From: Hyphobacterium sp. CCMP332
Lineage (GTDB): Bacteria; Bacteroidota; Bacteroidia; Cytophagales; CCMP332
Assembly (NCBI GenBank): GCA_014323545.1
Contig: CP058647.1
Span: forward strand, 2,644,001 to 2,708,000
Length of the DNA stretch: 64,000 nucleotides
Reading direction: 5' to 3'
Position numbers and translations under genes: made by a program. The notes beneath the pieces are model-generated. The model was given only the letters and a program-made list of their open reading frames with translations. It ran no database searches and was not told the origin of the DNA. This document shows, one piece after another, positions 539 to 30,471 of the stretch. How positions within the stretch are numbered: position 1 is the first letter of the stretch; each line of letters begins with the position of its first letter.

Positions 539-2044
539 TTAAACGATTTCATCAATTGGATATGACTTAAGGAATTCTATGGCTTTTTTTATGTCCTTAT
601 GCAAATAACGATCCTCTTTGAGAATTGGTATTTCTGCTCTGAAGTCACTTAAAACCTTTTGAACCAAAGCTGAGCTTTTATAATCCGTTCTAAAATAAAA
701 TGCCTGTGAAGCATTGATGAGTTCTATGGCCAAGACCCTTTGACTGTTTTCTAAAACCCTCAATGCCTTGGAGGCCGCATTGGCTCCCATGCTCACGTGA
801 TCCTCCTGCCCGTTAGAAGATGAAATGGAATCAACTGATGCCGGAGTACAGAGTTGTTTGTTTTGACTCACAATTCCTGCTGCCACGTATTGTGGTATCA
901 TTAAACCTGAATGGAGGCCCGGTTCATCAATCAAAAAATCGGGCAATTCTCTCTGACCGCTCAATAATTGAAATGTTCTTCTCTCAGAAATACTTCCCAG
1001 TTCCGCAATAGCTATCGCTATAAAATCCAATGCCAATGCCAAAGGTTGCCCGTGAAAATTTCCTCCTGAAAGAATAATATTATCCTCGGGACAAAAATTT
1101 GGATTATCGTTTACACCATTTAGCTCGCGGCTAAATATATCCTCTGAATATTTAAATGCATCATAACTTGCACCGTGAACCTGAGGCATGCACCGAAATG
1201 AATAGGGGTCTTGTGTATATATTTTAGCTCTGCTTTCATTATCGCTTCCCGAAAGAATAGATCGAATTTGTTCTGCAGCGATAATTTGCCCATTCTGGTT
1301 TCTCAATTTATGCACCAGTGGATGCATTGGTTCAAGTTTGCCGTCAAATGCTTCCAGGGAAATGGCGCCAATAAGATTCGCCCATTTAAAAAGTTCAAAT
1401 GCCTTATTTGTCACTAAAGCACCGAAAGAACTCATAAATTGTGTTCCGTTTAATATGGCAAGGCCTTCTTTGGCCACAAGGGCATGGGCTTCCCAGCCTA
1501 GTTTTTTATAAACGACTTCTGTTTTTTGAATTTTTCCTTCATAATGAACTTCTCCTTCGCCAATTACCGCCAATGCCAGGTGAGCCAAGGGTGCTAAATC
1601 TCCTGAAGCTCCCAATGAACCCATTTCGTAAACCACAGGTATAACATCGCGGTTGTACATGGCAACCAAAAACTCCACAAGATCCAGCGTGGTACCTGAA
1701 TTGCCATAGGAGAGCGAGATGATTTTATGCAAAAGCATTCGCTTTGAAATTTCAGGAGAAATAATGTCGCCGGTGCCGCATGCATGCGAACGCACCAAAT
1801 TAACTTGCAATTCCTCCAGATGCTCCTCACTGATTACTTTATTACAGAGCGACCCAAATCCGGTGTTAATCCCGTAAACTGTTTTTTTAGAAGAGAGTAT
1901 TTCTTCCTCGAGAAAAGTCCTGCAATTGAGAATTTTCCTTTTGGATTCATCAGAGAGTATTAAATTCTGTGCGCTGTCAACAATCTTTTCAAGATCCCTG
2001 AGTGATTTGTCTTTAACAGGTTTTATTATAAAATGATCGCTCAT
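539..2044 (-). CDS. hutH: Histidine ammonia-lyase
   Basis: Converts L-histidine to urocanate and ammonia in the cytoplasm, the first step of histidine degradation. The 501 aa length is normal. The Ala146-Ser147-Gly148 triad (GSLGASGDLAPL), which cyclises to the MIO cofactor, is present, as are YGINTGFG near residue 57, GNFHGQP and QEDHVSMG. The Ser86-His87 pair (NLVRSHACG) is the form seen in histidine rather than phenylalanine or tyrosine lyases (family knowledge). The start codon overlaps the hisS stop by 4 nt (ATGA), so the two are co-transcribed and possibly translationally coupled. No hutU, hutI or hutG gene is in the window, so the rest of the pathway must lie elsewhere or be absent. 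Confidence 0.93.
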   Translation of the reverse strand: MSDHFIIKPVKDKSLRDLEKIVDSAQNLILSDESKRKILNCRTFLEEEILSSKKTVYGINTGFGSLCNKVISEEHLEELQVNLVRSHACGTGDIISPEISKRMLLHKIISLSYGNSGTTLDLVEFLVAMYNRDVIPVVYEMGSLGASGDLAPLAHLALAVIGEGEVHYEGKIQKTEVVYKKLGWEAHALVAKEGLAILNGTQFMSSFGALVTNKAFELFKWANLIGAISLEAFDGKLEPMHPLVHKLRNQNGQIIAAEQIRSILSGSDNESRAKIYTQDPYSFRCMPQVHGASYDAFKYSEDIFSRELNGVNDNPNFCPEDNIILSGGNFHGQPLALALDFIAIAIAELGSISERRTFQLLSGQRELPDFLIDEPGLHSGLMIPQYVAAGIVSQNKQLCTPASVDSISSSNGQEDHVSMGANAASKALRVLENSQRVLAIELINASQAFYFRTDYKSSALVQKVLSDFRAEIPILKEDRYLHKDIKKAIEFLKSYPIDEIV

Positions 2045-25010: not shown

Positions 25011-26486
25011 TTAATATGCTTTGGCGAAAATAACTTTTTGTTTGGAAGTTTTGCCTGTGACTACACATTTTCCCTCTTTGCCATTGGAATCCAATGGAAT
25101 ACATCTCAAGCTTGCCTTGGTATCATTTTTTATTTTATCCTCCGTTTCGGCCGTTCCATCCCAATGGGCCAGAACAAATCCTCCCTTTGTATTGAGAACC
25201 TCTTTTAGTTCATCATAAGTTTCAACCTCATGCGTATTTTGCTTTCTAAAATCCAAAGCTCTTTTATAAATATTGTTTTGTATCTCTTCCAGTAGTTTTA
25301 CCACATCATCACTCAATTGGTCGAGCGAAATAAACATTTTCTCTTTGGTATCCCTTCTGGCCACTTCTGCCTGATTCTTTTCCAAATCTCTCGGGCCGAG
25401 AGCAATTCGTACAGGCACACCTTTTAATTCGTATTCTGCAAACTTCCATCCCGGTCTTTCCGTGTCTCTGTCATCAAATTTGAAAGAAATTCCTTTACTA
25501 AGAAATTCTTTTTCCAGTTTTGAAACCACTTCTTTAATTTTTTCAAGATCTTCTTCATTTCTGTAAATAGGGACACAAACCACCTGGATAGGGGCGAGTT
25601 TTGGTGGTAACACCAATCCGTCGTCATCAGAATGCGCCATAATCAAAGCGCCGATTAAACGCGTAGTAACACCCCAGGATGTTCCCCAAACGAGCTCTTC
25701 TTTTCCTTCTTTGGTCGCAAATTTTACATCAAAAGCTTTTGCAAAATTTTGACCCAGATAATGTGAGGTGCCTGCCTGAAGTGCTTTTCCATCCTGCATA
25801 AGCGCTTCAATACAATACGTATCAATGGCACCGGCAAATTTTTCCGATTCTGATTTTATACCCTGAATTACTGGCAATGCCATGGTTTCCTCTGCAAATT
25901 GAGTATATACATTGAGCATTCTTTCGGCTTCTTCAACGGCTTCTTTTGATGTGGCATGGGCCGTATGCCCCTCTTGCCATAAAAATTCAGTTGTTCTTAA
26001 AAACAATCTTGTTCTCATTTCCCAACGCACTACATTAGCCCATTGATTGACCAATAAGGGCAAATCTCTATAGGATTGTATCCATTTTCTATAAGTGCTC
26101 CAGATGACTGTTTCAGATGTCGGTCTTACTATTAATTCTTCTTCAAGTTTTGCCTCAGGATCGGGAATCACACCCTTTCCATCTTCAGACGTTTTTAATC
26201 GATAATGGGTAACTATTGCACATTCTTTTGCAAAACCTTCCACGTGATCGGCTTCACGGCTCATATAGGATTTTGGGATAAAGAGAGGAAAATAGGCATT
26301 GACATGTCCGGTTGCTTTAAACATGTCGTCCAGGCCTCTTTGCATCTTTTCCCAGATGCTGTATCCATAGGGTTTTATCACCATGCAGCCCCTCACATCA
26401 GAATTTTCTGCGAGATCGGCTTTCTTTACTAACTCATTGTACCACAGGGAGTAATTCTCTTTTCTACTCGGTAATGCTTTGGCCAT
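25011..26486 (-). CDS. proS: Prolyl-tRNA synthetase (archaeal/eukaryal-type)
   Basis: Class II synthetase charging tRNA-Pro. The 491 aa length, the missing editing insertion and motifs such as [25 protein letters not shown] (here [17 protein letters not shown]) and [14 protein letters not shown] place it in the archaeal/eukaryal-like group common in Bacteroidota. The C-terminal zinc-type extension ends in KVIFAKAY. First gene of proS-NfeD-floA; a TATCTTTG element lies about 60 nt upstream. Confidence 0.95.
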
Positions 26487-26547
26487 TTAGGAAAAATATT
26501 TCGTTTGGTATGCTATTTGCTACTTTTATTGTGTATAAGTTTTGCGG

Positions 26548-26555
26548 CAAAGATA
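26548..26555 (-). promoter_or_regulatory. -7 element for proS operon
   Basis: TATCTTTG on the minus strand fits TAnnTTTG and lies 61 nt before the proS ATG. No TTG at the expected -33 distance. Confidence 0.5.
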
Positions 26556-26621
26556 AGTGATAGCTCGGATAAAACTTTTACTTAATAAGAATTGTGTTAT
26601 AAGTGTAAAATGATGTCAATT

Positions 26622-28352
26622 ATGAAAAATTTTCTGAACAAACTCATCCTTTTAATTTCAATGGTGATCCTTTACGGTCAGACATCATTTGCCCAAGAAT
26701 ATGATGATATGTATTTCTCTGCAAATGATAGAATGAAGGTAAAATATGCCGATGCAGAGAGCAAACCGCTTAATCAATATCAGGATTACAGTGGAAATTC
26801 AAGTAAATATTCAGATAACTACGACGGAACGGCAAGAGATGTCGATTCGGATCTAGTAAAATATTATAAAGACAAAGCTGAGGAAACATCCAATTCATAT
26901 GCCATAGACAATGGAACTCAAAACCTTGCCGGTAATGATGGCTATTACAGCGATGAAACTTATGATTATGTCAGTTCTGATAATACGAATAGGGGAGGTA
27001 CTGTAAATAATTACTACGGACCTACTTATTTATCTGATCCCTGGTATACCAATCCCGGTTTTGCTGTCAATACCGGATTAAACTGGGGTTATTATCCATG
27101 GAGACCTGTCAACTGGGGTTGGGGATTTGGTTGGAATTCCTGGTCTGGATGGAATGTTGGCTTTGGCTGGGGTTGGAACAGTTGGGGACTTTACGATCCA
27201 TTCTGGGGACCTGGCTGGGGATGGAATAGCTGGGGTTGGAATAACTGGGGCTGGAGAAATGGCTATTATGGCTGGGGCGGCGGATGTTGGAATTGTTATC
27301 CCGGTTGCGGTGCATGGGGCGGCGGTGGAGTTATCATCAATAATAATGTTGGAATAAATAACAACAGCTTTTACGGGCCTCGTTATGCCAACCGAAGTAC
27401 AAACGTAGTTCAATCAGGTAGTGTAACGAGAACAACCAGATTGGGTAATTCTGGTAAAACCGGAACGGTAGTCGGTGCAGACCAAAGCAATAAAAGAATT
27501 TCCAGATATACCAGGTCTTCTGCTGCTACTTCCAATACCGTGGAAAGAGCCACAAGAAATTCGGGTTCAACTGCAACTCGTGGTGAAGTTTCAAGAGCTG
27601 CGGCCACTCCTGAACGTTATAAAGATGTGAGCAGAGGAAGTACTTCGAGAAACTATGGAACAGCTTCCCGTAACGAAAATGCAGTGGACAGCAGATCTCA
27701 AAGAGCACAAGAAAGGTATAGAACTTCTACACCTTCAGTGCGAACTTCAAGCAGTCCAACAAGATCTACGGTTGAATCTGAGACCAGGTCATTCCCAACA
27801 AGAAGTGGCTCTGATGTAAGCAGAGATCCTCGACAGCAAAGGTATAGTAACTCTAACAGGAGTAATACCTATCAAAGAGCTGAAACAGGTTCAAATACAA
27901 GGACCGTTCCTTCAAGGTCTTCCGGTAATTCCGGCAGAAATTATGGAACGCCTTCGAGAAGTAGCGAATCATCAAGATCTTATGAGGCGCCTACAAGATC
28001 GGGCAACACCCCTTCAAGGACTTATAGCAAGCCTTCAAGGAGTAATACACCTAATAGAGAGTACAGAAGAAGCACTCCGTCAAGGTCGAGTACTCCGAGC
28101 AGGTCTTACAGCAGTCCATCGAGAAGCAGTACGCCTTCAAGGTCATATAGTACTCCTTCAAGATCAAGAAGCTCAAGCCCTTCAAGAAGCTATAGCTCAC
28201 CGTCTAGGTCGAGCTCACCTTCACGAAGCTTTAGTTCACCATCGAGATCGAGTTCACCTTCCAGGAGTTTTAGTTCTCCATCAAGGAGCAGTTCTCCTTC
28301 AAGATCAAGTGGTGGAGGAAGCAGATCCAGTGGTGGAAGATCGAGAAGATAA
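26622..28352 (+). CDS. Exported Trp/Gly-rich and Ser/Arg-rich repetitive protein
   Basis: A 576 aa protein beginning with a signal peptide (NKLILLISMVILYGQTSFAQ). Residues to about 145 are polar. About 150-235 are extremely Trp/Gly/Asn-rich (NWGWGFGWNSWSGWN). From about 270 onward it is Ser/Arg/Thr/Pro-rich and becomes an RS-type repeat (SPSRSFSSPSRSS) that ends GGGSRSSGGRSRR. The ATG at 26622 is preferred as the start of a normal signal peptide; ATGs at 26610/26613 are possible. No enzyme motif is present. It lies 27 nt before a FadL-type porin gene, so a cell-surface or periplasmic role is likely (inference). Confidence 0.82.
   Translation: MKNFLNKLILLISMVILYGQTSFAQEYDDMYFSANDRMKVKYADAESKPLNQYQDYSGNSSKYSDNYDGTARDVDSDLVKYYKDKAEETSNSYAIDNGTQNLAGNDGYYSDETYDYVSSDNTNRGGTVNNYYGPTYLSDPWYTNPGFAVNTGLNWGYYPWRPVNWGWGFGWNSWSGWNVGFGWGWNSWGLYDPFWGPGWGWNSWGWNNWGWRNGYYGWGGGCWNCYPGCGAWGGGGVIINNNVGINNNSFYGPRYANRSTNVVQSGSVTRTTRLGNSGKTGTVVGADQSNKRISRYTRSSAATSNTVERATRNSGSTATRGEVSRAAATPERYKDVSRGSTSRNYGTASRNENAVDSRSQRAQERYRTSTPSVRTSSSPTRSTVESETRSFPTRSGSDVSRDPRQQRYSNSNRSNTYQRAETGSNTRTVPSRSSGNSGRNYGTPSRSSESSRSYEAPTRSGNTPSRTYSKPSRSNTPNREYRRSTPSRSSTPSRSYSSPSRSSTPSRSYSTPSRSRSSSPSRSYSSPSRSSSPSRSFSSPSRSSSPSRSFSSPSRSSSPSRSSGGGSRSSGGRSRR
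28176..28310 (+). repeat. 39-bp tandem coding repeat (RS repeat)
   Basis: Three full in-frame units of 39 bp (28176-28214, 28215-28253, 28254-28292) and a partial fourth, each encoding SPSRSFSSPSRSS or the Tyr variant. Codons differ between units, so the protein pattern is kept while the DNA has diverged. Confidence 0.85.
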
Positions 28353-28379
28353 TTGAGAGGTTAAATAAAATTTAAGGTC

Positions 28380-29954
28380 ATGAAAAAATTAAGCTTAAAA
28401 TTAATAATACCAATGCTGTGCCTGTTTTTAGAGCTGCAGGCACAGGTTGATCCAAATTCCATAGGCTATTATCAGGATGCACTCAGATTTAGTTCTACTG
28501 ATAGGGGCGGAACAGCCAGATTACAAGGTTTGGCCGGTTCAGGTGTTGCATTGGGTGGAGATTTATCGTCAGTAATTATCAATCCTGCTGGCCTTGGATT
28601 TTACAATCGATCTGTTTTAAGCATTACTCCACAGATTTCATTCCGTGATAACACTGCGAGTTTTCAAGGACAGGATAACGTGACTTTTAACGATAAGTTT
28701 TCGGTGGGTCAAATAGGAATATCCATAGACCTGACAAAATCAGATATCGAAAAAGGGGATTTCAGAGGCGGTTCTTTGGCTTTTTCATTTAGCAAGAGAA
28801 ACGATTTTAATGAAGAGATTGAACTCGTTGGGGAAAACTATCAAAGTTCAATAGTGGATTATTATCTGGAAAGCGCTCAGGGAATTTATACTTCAGATTT
28901 ATATAGGGAAAATAACGGAGAACAAATTCCAGCAAATCCCATTGGAATGGCTTATGATGCATTTCTATTTGATATTGATATCAATGCCTGTAATGACCCT
29001 GCCGATTGCAATATATATGAACGTTTTTATGCATTCGAACCAATGCGCCAGAGAGAATTGATTAGAACTACCGGAAATCAAAATGAATGGACCGTTTCAT
29101 ACGGAGGGAACTTTAAAGATCAATTCTATTTTGGGACGAAATTGGGTATAGCCTCGGTGAATTATTTAATTGAAAGAACTTACAATGAAAGGGCACTCGA
29201 TCAAGGGACAGATGCACTTCGAAGTACCACTTTAAACGATAGACTGGAAATTGATGGAACAGGATTCAATCTGGGACTGGGTTTTATCTACCGTCCAGTT
29301 GATTTGTTCCGTTTTGGACTCAACTTTGAAACCCCGACTTATTATGCCTTAGAGGAGGATTTTGATGCAGATTTATCAGCTCAATTCAATAATTTCTTAT
29401 TTTATGAAGATCCGAATAATCCTGACAACAATTTCTATTTGAATAATGAAAGTTCAAGCCTGCCCAATGGTTTCTTTAATTATCGTTTGCGTACGCCCAT
29501 GAAGGTAAACTTCGGTGCAGCCATATTTGCGAGCAAGAATGGCTTCATAACTGCCGATGTAGAATACCTCGATTACAGCAGGTCTCGCGTAAGTTTTGAA
29601 AGTTTGGGAGGCGATGAAAGTGCCGATAACAGAAGCATACAGAATATTTACGATCGCACCTTTAATTTTAGAGTGGGAGCCGAATACCGTGTTGATGATT
29701 TTAGATTCAGAGGTGGCTATGCCAATTTAGGTGATCCATTCAAAGAAAATATTAATCTTGTCGATCAGTCGCGTCAAAGAATAAGTGGTGGATTGGGCAT
29801 GCGTTTACAGGATTATTTTTGGGATGTAGCCTTGATTCACGAATGGTGGAATGAAGGGTATACATTGTACAATTTACAAAATGGCTATGCACCGGCAGCG
29901 GAATTCAAAAAAAACCTGACCACATTGGCAATTACCGGCGGATTGTATTTTTAA
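28380..29954 (+). CDS. OmpP1/FadL/TodX-type outer-membrane porin
   Basis: A 524 aa protein with a signal peptide (CLFLELQAQ) and the N-terminal hatch region DALRFSSTDRGGTARLQGLA and INPAGLGFY, typical of the FadL/TodX family that moves hydrophobic compounds across the outer membrane. The rest is strand-rich with barrel repeats such as FRFGLNFETPTYY and ends in an aromatic residue (GLYF). It follows the RS-repeat gene by 27 nt and overlaps the convergent aroK gene by 23 nt. Confidence 0.88.
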   Translation: MKKLSLKLIIPMLCLFLELQAQVDPNSIGYYQDALRFSSTDRGGTARLQGLAGSGVALGGDLSSVIINPAGLGFYNRSVLSITPQISFRDNTASFQGQDNVTFNDKFSVGQIGISIDLTKSDIEKGDFRGGSLAFSFSKRNDFNEEIELVGENYQSSIVDYYLESAQGIYTSDLYRENNGEQIPANPIGMAYDAFLFDIDINACNDPADCNIYERFYAFEPMRQRELIRTTGNQNEWTVSYGGNFKDQFYFGTKLGIASVNYLIERTYNERALDQGTDALRSTTLNDRLEIDGTGFNLGLGFIYRPVDLFRFGLNFETPTYYALEEDFDADLSAQFNNFLFYEDPNNPDNNFYLNNESSSLPNGFFNYRLRTPMKVNFGAAIFASKNGFITADVEYLDYSRSRVSFESLGGDESADNRSIQNIYDRTFNFRVGAEYRVDDFRFRGGYANLGDPFKENINLVDQSRQRISGGLGMRLQDYFWDVALIHEWWNEGYTLYNLQNGYAPAAEFKKNLTTLAITGGLYF

Positions 29955-30471
29955 AAGAATCGGGTATAACTTTTAATATGGAATGAATATCAGAGGGTTG
30001 ATCTACTATGCGATCAGCCCTTTTATAATGTTCTTTTCTTTTTTCAAGCAAGATTTCCAATTGTCTTTTCAGGTCTTTTTTAGAGTCAATTAGTGGTCTT
30101 TCGAAAATTTTATTTCCCAGATTTTTAACAATAGTATCGATTTTGGTATTTATCCAAATACTAAAACTTTTTTCTTTTAACAGCTTAAAATTGCTTTTGC
30201 TACAGGGTGTTCCGCCACCCAAAGAAAGAATAATTCTCTTATTGTGATTTAGTAAATGATTGAGTGCCTTTTCTTCTTTTGATCTGAAATAGGTTTCGCC
30301 ATTTTGATTTATCATTTCAAAAATTCTCAGACCGGATTCTTTTTCAACAAATTCATCAAGATCAATGAAATCCAATGATAGGACTTCTGATAATTTACGG
30401 CCCCAATAGGTTTTACCGGCTCCGGGCATCCCCCATAAGCTCAGTATTTTCTTATCAGAAATATTAACCAA
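29932..30471 (-). CDS. aroK: Shikimate kinase
   Basis: Phosphorylates shikimate in aromatic amino-acid synthesis. Walker A is GMPGAGKT at residues 14-21; DLDEFVE (shikimate-binding Asp), SLGGGTPC and the lid sequence FERPLI are also present. 179 aa is normal. Start is TTG at 30469-30471, overlapping the DoxX gene by 8 nt. Last gene of the DUF1599-DoxX-aroK set. Confidence 0.92.
   Translation of the reverse strand: MVNISDKKILSLWGMPGAGKTYWGRKLSEVLSLDFIDLDEFVEKESGLRIFEMINQNGETYFRSKEEKALNHLLNHNKRIILSLGGGTPCSKSNFKLLKEKSFSIWINTKIDTIVKNLGNKIFERPLIDSKKDLKRQLEILLEKRKEHYKRADRIVDQPSDIHSILKVIPDSFKNTIRR

Follow-up and report, generated by a model that had tools for sequence, protein, structure and literature searches.

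An apparently undescribed family of exported, compositionally blocked proteins encoded beside a FadL-superfamily porin in Bacteroidota

The closest described systems to the locus considered here are pairs of a FadL-superfamily barrel and a lipoprotein. BamG is reported to be an essential FadL-family subunit of BAM with the lipoprotein partner BamH (PMC12611786), and BamG2 and BamH2 are assigned to a putative operon (PMC12611786, PMC12578637). Other relatives, including FadL, TodX and TbuX, are channels for hydrophobic compounds. Two eukaryotic protein types provide a comparison of composition. SR proteins consist of a domain rich in RS dipeptides and an RNA recognition domain. In FUS, Tyr residues in one block and Arg residues in another drive phase separation (PMC8847598).

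The window analysed is a stretch of 64,000 nucleotides from Hyphobacterium sp. CCMP332. The designation X is used for its open reading frame 26622-28352(+) and the family members of this frame, and the FadL-like gene directly downstream is called the partner (Table 1). Alternative in-frame starts of X lie further 5' at 26592 (TTG), 26610 and 26613. The reading tentatively preferred here, with a probability of about 0.35, is that X may be a dedicated partner of the downstream, uncharacterised FadL-superfamily porin and may act as a flexible, multivalent sink or scaffold. By analogy, this would be the simplest reading, because BamG-BamH and BamG2-BamH2 are known pairs of such a barrel with a lipoprotein. 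The likeness has limits: BamH is described as a folded lipoprotein of the cell surface that carries an acidic export signal, whereas X is predicted to be disordered and lacks that signal, and the porin of the window is not BamG.

Table 1. Features of the X-porin locus, in positions of the window.
Feature	Positions	Strand	Basis
proS, divergent, upstream of X	25011..26486	-	TIGR00408
Gene X, exported three-block protein, 576 aa + stop	26622..28352	+	Open frame; layout recurs phylum-wide
Signal peptide, residues 1-24, predicted cleavage before Gln25	26622..26693	+	By eye; helix 2-18 in model
N-terminal motif EYDDMYFSANDR, residues 26-37, opens acidic segment	26697..26732	+	Alignment A2 of 28 sequences
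Aromatic block, residues 126-255, rich in Trp, Tyr, Gly, Asn	26997..27386	+	Composition
Arg/Ser tail, residues 256-576, net +43	27387..28349	+	Composition; RS dipeptides
39-bp tandem repeat within tail, 3.2 copies, 78% matches	28179..28304	+	Tandem Repeats Finder
Gap between X and FadL-like gene, 27 nt	28353..28379	+	Sequence; no terminator-like site
Partner: FadL-superfamily outer membrane porin, 524 aa, not BamG	28380..29954	+	Pfam, structure model, Foldseek

The signal peptide of window X appears, as judged by eye, to stop between TSFA and QEYDD. A Gln in the first position of the mature protein agrees with the Bacteroidetes Q-rule (PMC5837995), and the cleavage site is of the signal peptidase I type, without a lipobox. 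The acidic segment that follows has a net charge of -11 across 100 residues. The aromatic block contains 21 W, 31 G, 20 N and 12 Y in 130 residues, and the tail contains 98 S, 55 R, 35 T, 23 P and 4 K in 321 residues, with R and S together making up 48%. These counts agree with the first-pass annotation, which had described a signal peptide, a segment rich in Trp, Gly and Asn, and about 300 residues of Ser, Arg, Pro and Thr ending in a 39-bp tandem repeat; the repeat is recovered with the same period. That annotation had also called the tail a eukaryote-like RS repeat. The tail of window X contains 55 RS/SR dipeptides, more than expected by chance (mean 33.7, sd 4.6, maximum 49 in 2000 same-residue shuffles), but most of the family lacks such patterning, and enrichment beyond composition (z > 2) is found in only 43 of 187 members. 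The likeness to an RS domain is compositional only. In contrast to SR proteins, X has no recognised RNA-binding family (Pfam, NCBIfam) and, to our knowledge, kinase phosphorylation is not to be expected in the periplasm. An out-of-frame ORF of 137 aa at 27943-28356(+), which overlaps the repeat tail, is probably a by-product of Ser/Arg codon bias.

The FadL porin reported by the first-pass annotation is present at the distance it gave. No terminator-like sites were found in 26400-30100, and promoter-like sites are no commoner than in shuffles (10 vs 8.9). The predicted structure of the partner (pLDDT 89.5) has the barrel fold typical of the FadL superfamily. Its top Foldseek matches are BamG and E. 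coli FadL chains alike (E about 6e-17 to 7e-17), at a sequence identity of only 11-14%. The match to Pfam Toluene_X (1.4e-5) lies below the family cut-off, and the profile matches include TbuX (1.5e-11), TodX (6e-5) and PorV chains (PDB). Such matches are what the partner shares with the FadL/TodX/TbuX channels; it differs from them in falling below the Pfam cut-off and in being paired with X. The identification of the partner as the essential BAM subunit BamG was re-tested because a profile of 26 partners matched no BamG chain in the PDB and because the Foldseek identity was 11%. It was rejected, as the BamG of this genome is a separate gene elsewhere (427 aa, C1:1323038-1324318, equivalent to L323:1156-2436(-)), which matches the BamG chains of F. 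johnsoniae, P. gingivalis and B. thetaiotaomicron at 8e-39, 2e-28 and 5e-27 and adjoins a pantothenate-kinase-like gene and a TPR gene. PorV is a third gene, distinct from both. The partner is a separate, uncharacterised porin of the FadL superfamily.

A search with the full-length X sequence gave matches in only 4 of 39 genomes, its own included; consequently, the family was traced by synteny. An ORF was called X if it had at least 150 aa and more than 55% R, S, T, P, N, G, Q, Y and W. The partner is present in 48 of 59 order-level genomes, including the window's own, and in the remaining 47 (the order set) X lies directly 5' of the partner on the same strand in 33. In a phylum-wide draw, the partner was detected in 137 of 198 genomes (E <= 1e-20). 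The phylum set comprises 80 of these 137 (37/37 from the same class, 3 from the same order and 40 hand-picked for family coverage) and spans about 30 families by our count. In 77 of the 79 phylum loci with a partner frame, X immediately precedes the partner, the exceptions being L118 and L185; L159 stands outside the 79, its FadL-like frame being broken by N, and a broken X reading is visible there too. The named set, the best 80 loci of a separate collection, gives 78 of 80. Judging by their titles, these are presumably mostly Cytophagales (Roseivirga, Algoriphagus, Hymenobacter, Pontibacter, Spirosoma and others), with some titled only Bacteroidetes or Bacteroidia and one 'uncultured Bacteroides sp.'. 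The sets share three loci, leaving 185 distinct of 188, and the gap between X and the partner is at most 150 nt in 160 of the 188. By comparison, proS is found in 47 of the 80 phylum loci, and X occurs without it in 30 of these phylum loci. The pairing of X with the partner is conserved and well supported, and the layout, for which the first-pass annotation had advised a search in relatives, is not confined to the genome of the window. Two features of these counts argue against the partner reading: the search upstream of the partner gave no X at 2 of 79 phylum loci and at 2 of 80 named loci, and the calling rule also passes 48 of 489 other long ORFs of the phylum loci, although this rate is far below 77 of 79.

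The family appears to be undescribed. No Pfam or NCBIfam family is common to more than one of 30 X members, and an N-terminal profile gave a best PDB match of E 2.8. No mention of X was found in narrow literature searches, of which those by locus tag were aimed beside BamG and so miss the real locus. Fjoh_4940 and Fjoh_4941, a lipoprotein and a FadL homologue (PMC12045153), are a candidate for the same pair.

The composition and block order of X stay while its letters drift. The aromatic block precedes the Arg block in all 175 distinct members; ten loci with a late script start codon or a cut gene do not enter the block counts. Net charge is negative over the first fifth in 154 members and positive over the second half in 174. 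A strict three-block order is weakened by the fact that the average position of acidic residues lies ahead of that of aromatic ones in only 126 of 178 members. When the mature protein is divided into tenths, acidic residues begin at 18%, aromatic residues peak at 33%, and Arg stays at 13-15% through the second half; in the tail, this Arg level is found in all four GC classes. The ratio R/(R+K) is 0.92 in X compared with 0.61 in the partner of the same locus, and it is higher in X in 170 of 178 cases. An AlphaFold2 model computed with 30 members has a mean pLDDT of 44 and no structure past the signal helix, and X is predicted to be disordered. In ten of ten hand-picked pairs of related genomes, third codon positions change most in the tail, and selection on the protein is observed in all blocks, the tail included. 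A family that is kept in composition and gene order, with drifting letters, and that is missed by family libraries represents an annotation blind spot.

Multivalent weak binding is proposed for X because predicted disorder and the placement of Tyr/Trp and Arg in separate blocks meet its needs. We infer a set of contacts, probably on the periplasmic side. The N-terminal acidic/DDxY segment would anchor X to the membrane or the porin, the Tyr/Trp/Gly block could engage in many weak aromatic contacts, either with further X molecules or with hydrophobic cargo carried by the porin, and the Arg/Ser tail could bind the aromatic block as well as anions (LPS and lipid phosphates, carboxylates), again through many weak contacts. 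X would form a flexible, membrane-associated scaffold or multivalent sink beside the porin and would supply a partner for an uncharacterised member of the FadL superfamily. The docking segment is best defined within the order, where 28 aligned members give the consensus ExDDxYFxSKDR with invariant D28 and Y31 (alignment A2). It is doubtful that members outside the order share a docking motif, because DDxY, present in 40 of 77 phylum members, is absent in 37.

The profile built from this alignment ignores the tail and works within the order but only weakly outside it. At E <= 0.1 it matches 43 of 198 genomes, many of the matches being noise; outside the order 33 genomes are matched, and in 18 of the 33 a match lies within about 1.3 kb 5' of the partner on the same strand. 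Of the 47 order genomes, 14 have X and the partner apart, and the profile locates X elsewhere in 12 of the 14, two of these relocated genes adjoining proS. In the other two, G012 gives no X by profile, and the G003 match (L312) is not counted as X, as it is without aromatic and Arg blocks. Among the 11 order genomes without the partner, X is found only in G051. This difference (12/14 vs 1/11) gives a Fisher p of 2e-4, a value that ignores relatedness. The profile search for the partner itself gives weak partial matches in 4 of these 11 genomes (best 3e-15). At eight FadL-matching loci of partner-less genomes, out of 25 such loci in all, no X-like ORF was seen.

The 12 relocated genes and the lone X of G051 argue against a dedicated partner and lend themselves to the strongest competing explanation. 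X might instead be a general envelope polyelectrolyte, a spacer, tether or glue between the outer membrane and peptidoglycan or LPS, that acts independently of the porin and has it merely as a stable neighbour. The nearly universal positive charge of the second half fits such a role, and this explanation is possible, nearly as likely as the partner reading, because X survives relocation. It accounts poorly, however, for a pairing that persists over about 30 families while proS varies, and for the rarity of X in porin-less order genomes.

Location with respect to the outer membrane bears on a further explanation, in which X is a surface adhesive or matrix protein. Among the 188 members, the cleavage site is of the lipobox type in 118, of the AxAQ type, as in window X, in 48, while 22 fitted neither pattern, some visible lipoproteins missed by the lipobox pattern among them. 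Acidic residues after the lipid cysteine are a reported feature of the surface lipoproteins BamH-K (PMC12578637). A surface-export signal of this kind, defined as at least two acidic residues among the six after the lipid cysteine, is found in 0 of the 118 lipobox members, the six positions containing no acidic residue in 109 and one in 9. The rule applies to lipobox members; signal peptidase I members, window X included, fall outside it. Because of the 0/118 result the periplasmic side is favoured, and X is expected from sequence to face the periplasm rather than to form a surface matrix. With E <= 1, window X gives only a weak ShyA match (0.023) in Pfam and NCBIfam, the latter of which presumably includes models of type IX sorting domains. 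The first-pass annotation had proposed a cell-surface polyelectrolyte, adhesive or matrix component. An exported polyelectrolyte tied to the porin survives from that proposal, the tie being conserved in 77 of 79 phylum loci; the surface position is not supported. The export signal and the low-complexity aromatic, Gly-rich and basic segments, which resemble those of sticky matrix proteins, still speak for an adhesive, but with the surface signal missing from the lipobox members and no NCBIfam family common to the 30 members compared, this role is unlikely.

A similarly low probability is given to X as a periplasmic holdase or assembly factor that serves outer membrane proteins generally and counts the porin among its clients. 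Disorder, abundant aromatic residues and a predicted place at the outer membrane would suit such a protein. However, X is not reported among the co-purified BAM subunits of F. johnsoniae and B. thetaiotaomicron in the accessible parts of the two studies (PMC12611786, PMC12578637). Moreover, BamG is present in 8 of the 11 partner-less order genomes, the other three being genomes of 1.1-1.2 Mb, and 7 of these 8 lack X by profile.

The comparison with FUS leads to a bolder form of the partner reading. As in the Tyr-rich prion-like and Arg-rich RGG blocks of FUS-type proteins, aromatic and Arg residues of X occupy separate blocks, and X also prefers Tyr/Trp over Phe and Arg over Lys. It differs in being exported, in having an acidic first block and in belonging to no recognised nucleic-acid-binding family; the resemblance is one of composition, and Tyr/Arg condensation of X would be an analogy. 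An extracytoplasmic counterpart of FUS, in which lipid-anchored or soluble X self-associates at the inner face of the outer membrane and the condensed layer gathers the FadL-type porin and captures its hydrophobic cargo, is considered improbable. The family would nevertheless offer a natural test of whether aromatic and Arg blocks work outside the cytoplasm as they do in eukaryotic condensates. Scarcely credible, finally, is that X is drifting low-complexity sequence of little function, placed beside the porin gene by chance: its low sequence identity and more variable length (coefficient of variation 0.14 vs 0.04 for the porin, named set) would fit, but the selection seen on the protein in every block, the unchanging order of the blocks and level of Arg, and retention after relocation stand against it.

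Several minor observations were made on individual loci. The G003 match L312, at about 1477-1806(+), encodes a 110-aa exported protein with the motif YDPVYFRKKDRK (DPVYF-type), and the G075 match L109 was rejected by eye as an unrelated MsrB-like protein. In genus g22 (L307, L311, L346), X lies by itself next to metabolic genes and apart from the FadL-like gene; G051, one of these genomes, gives no FadL-like match. The closest available relatives, L035 and L036 of the window genome's family, retain the order proS-X-porin and carry the more divergent X, without the DDxYF motif. Tryptic coverage shows a modest gap (0.50 for X vs 0.62 for comparison), and the O-glycosylation motif occurs in 38 of 187 members, window X not among them. 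Two loci, L173 (G134) and L175 (G148), contain two tandem X-like genes 5' of the FadL-like gene, and in both a CxxCH motif resembling that of haem c proteins is present in the copy adjacent to the porin.
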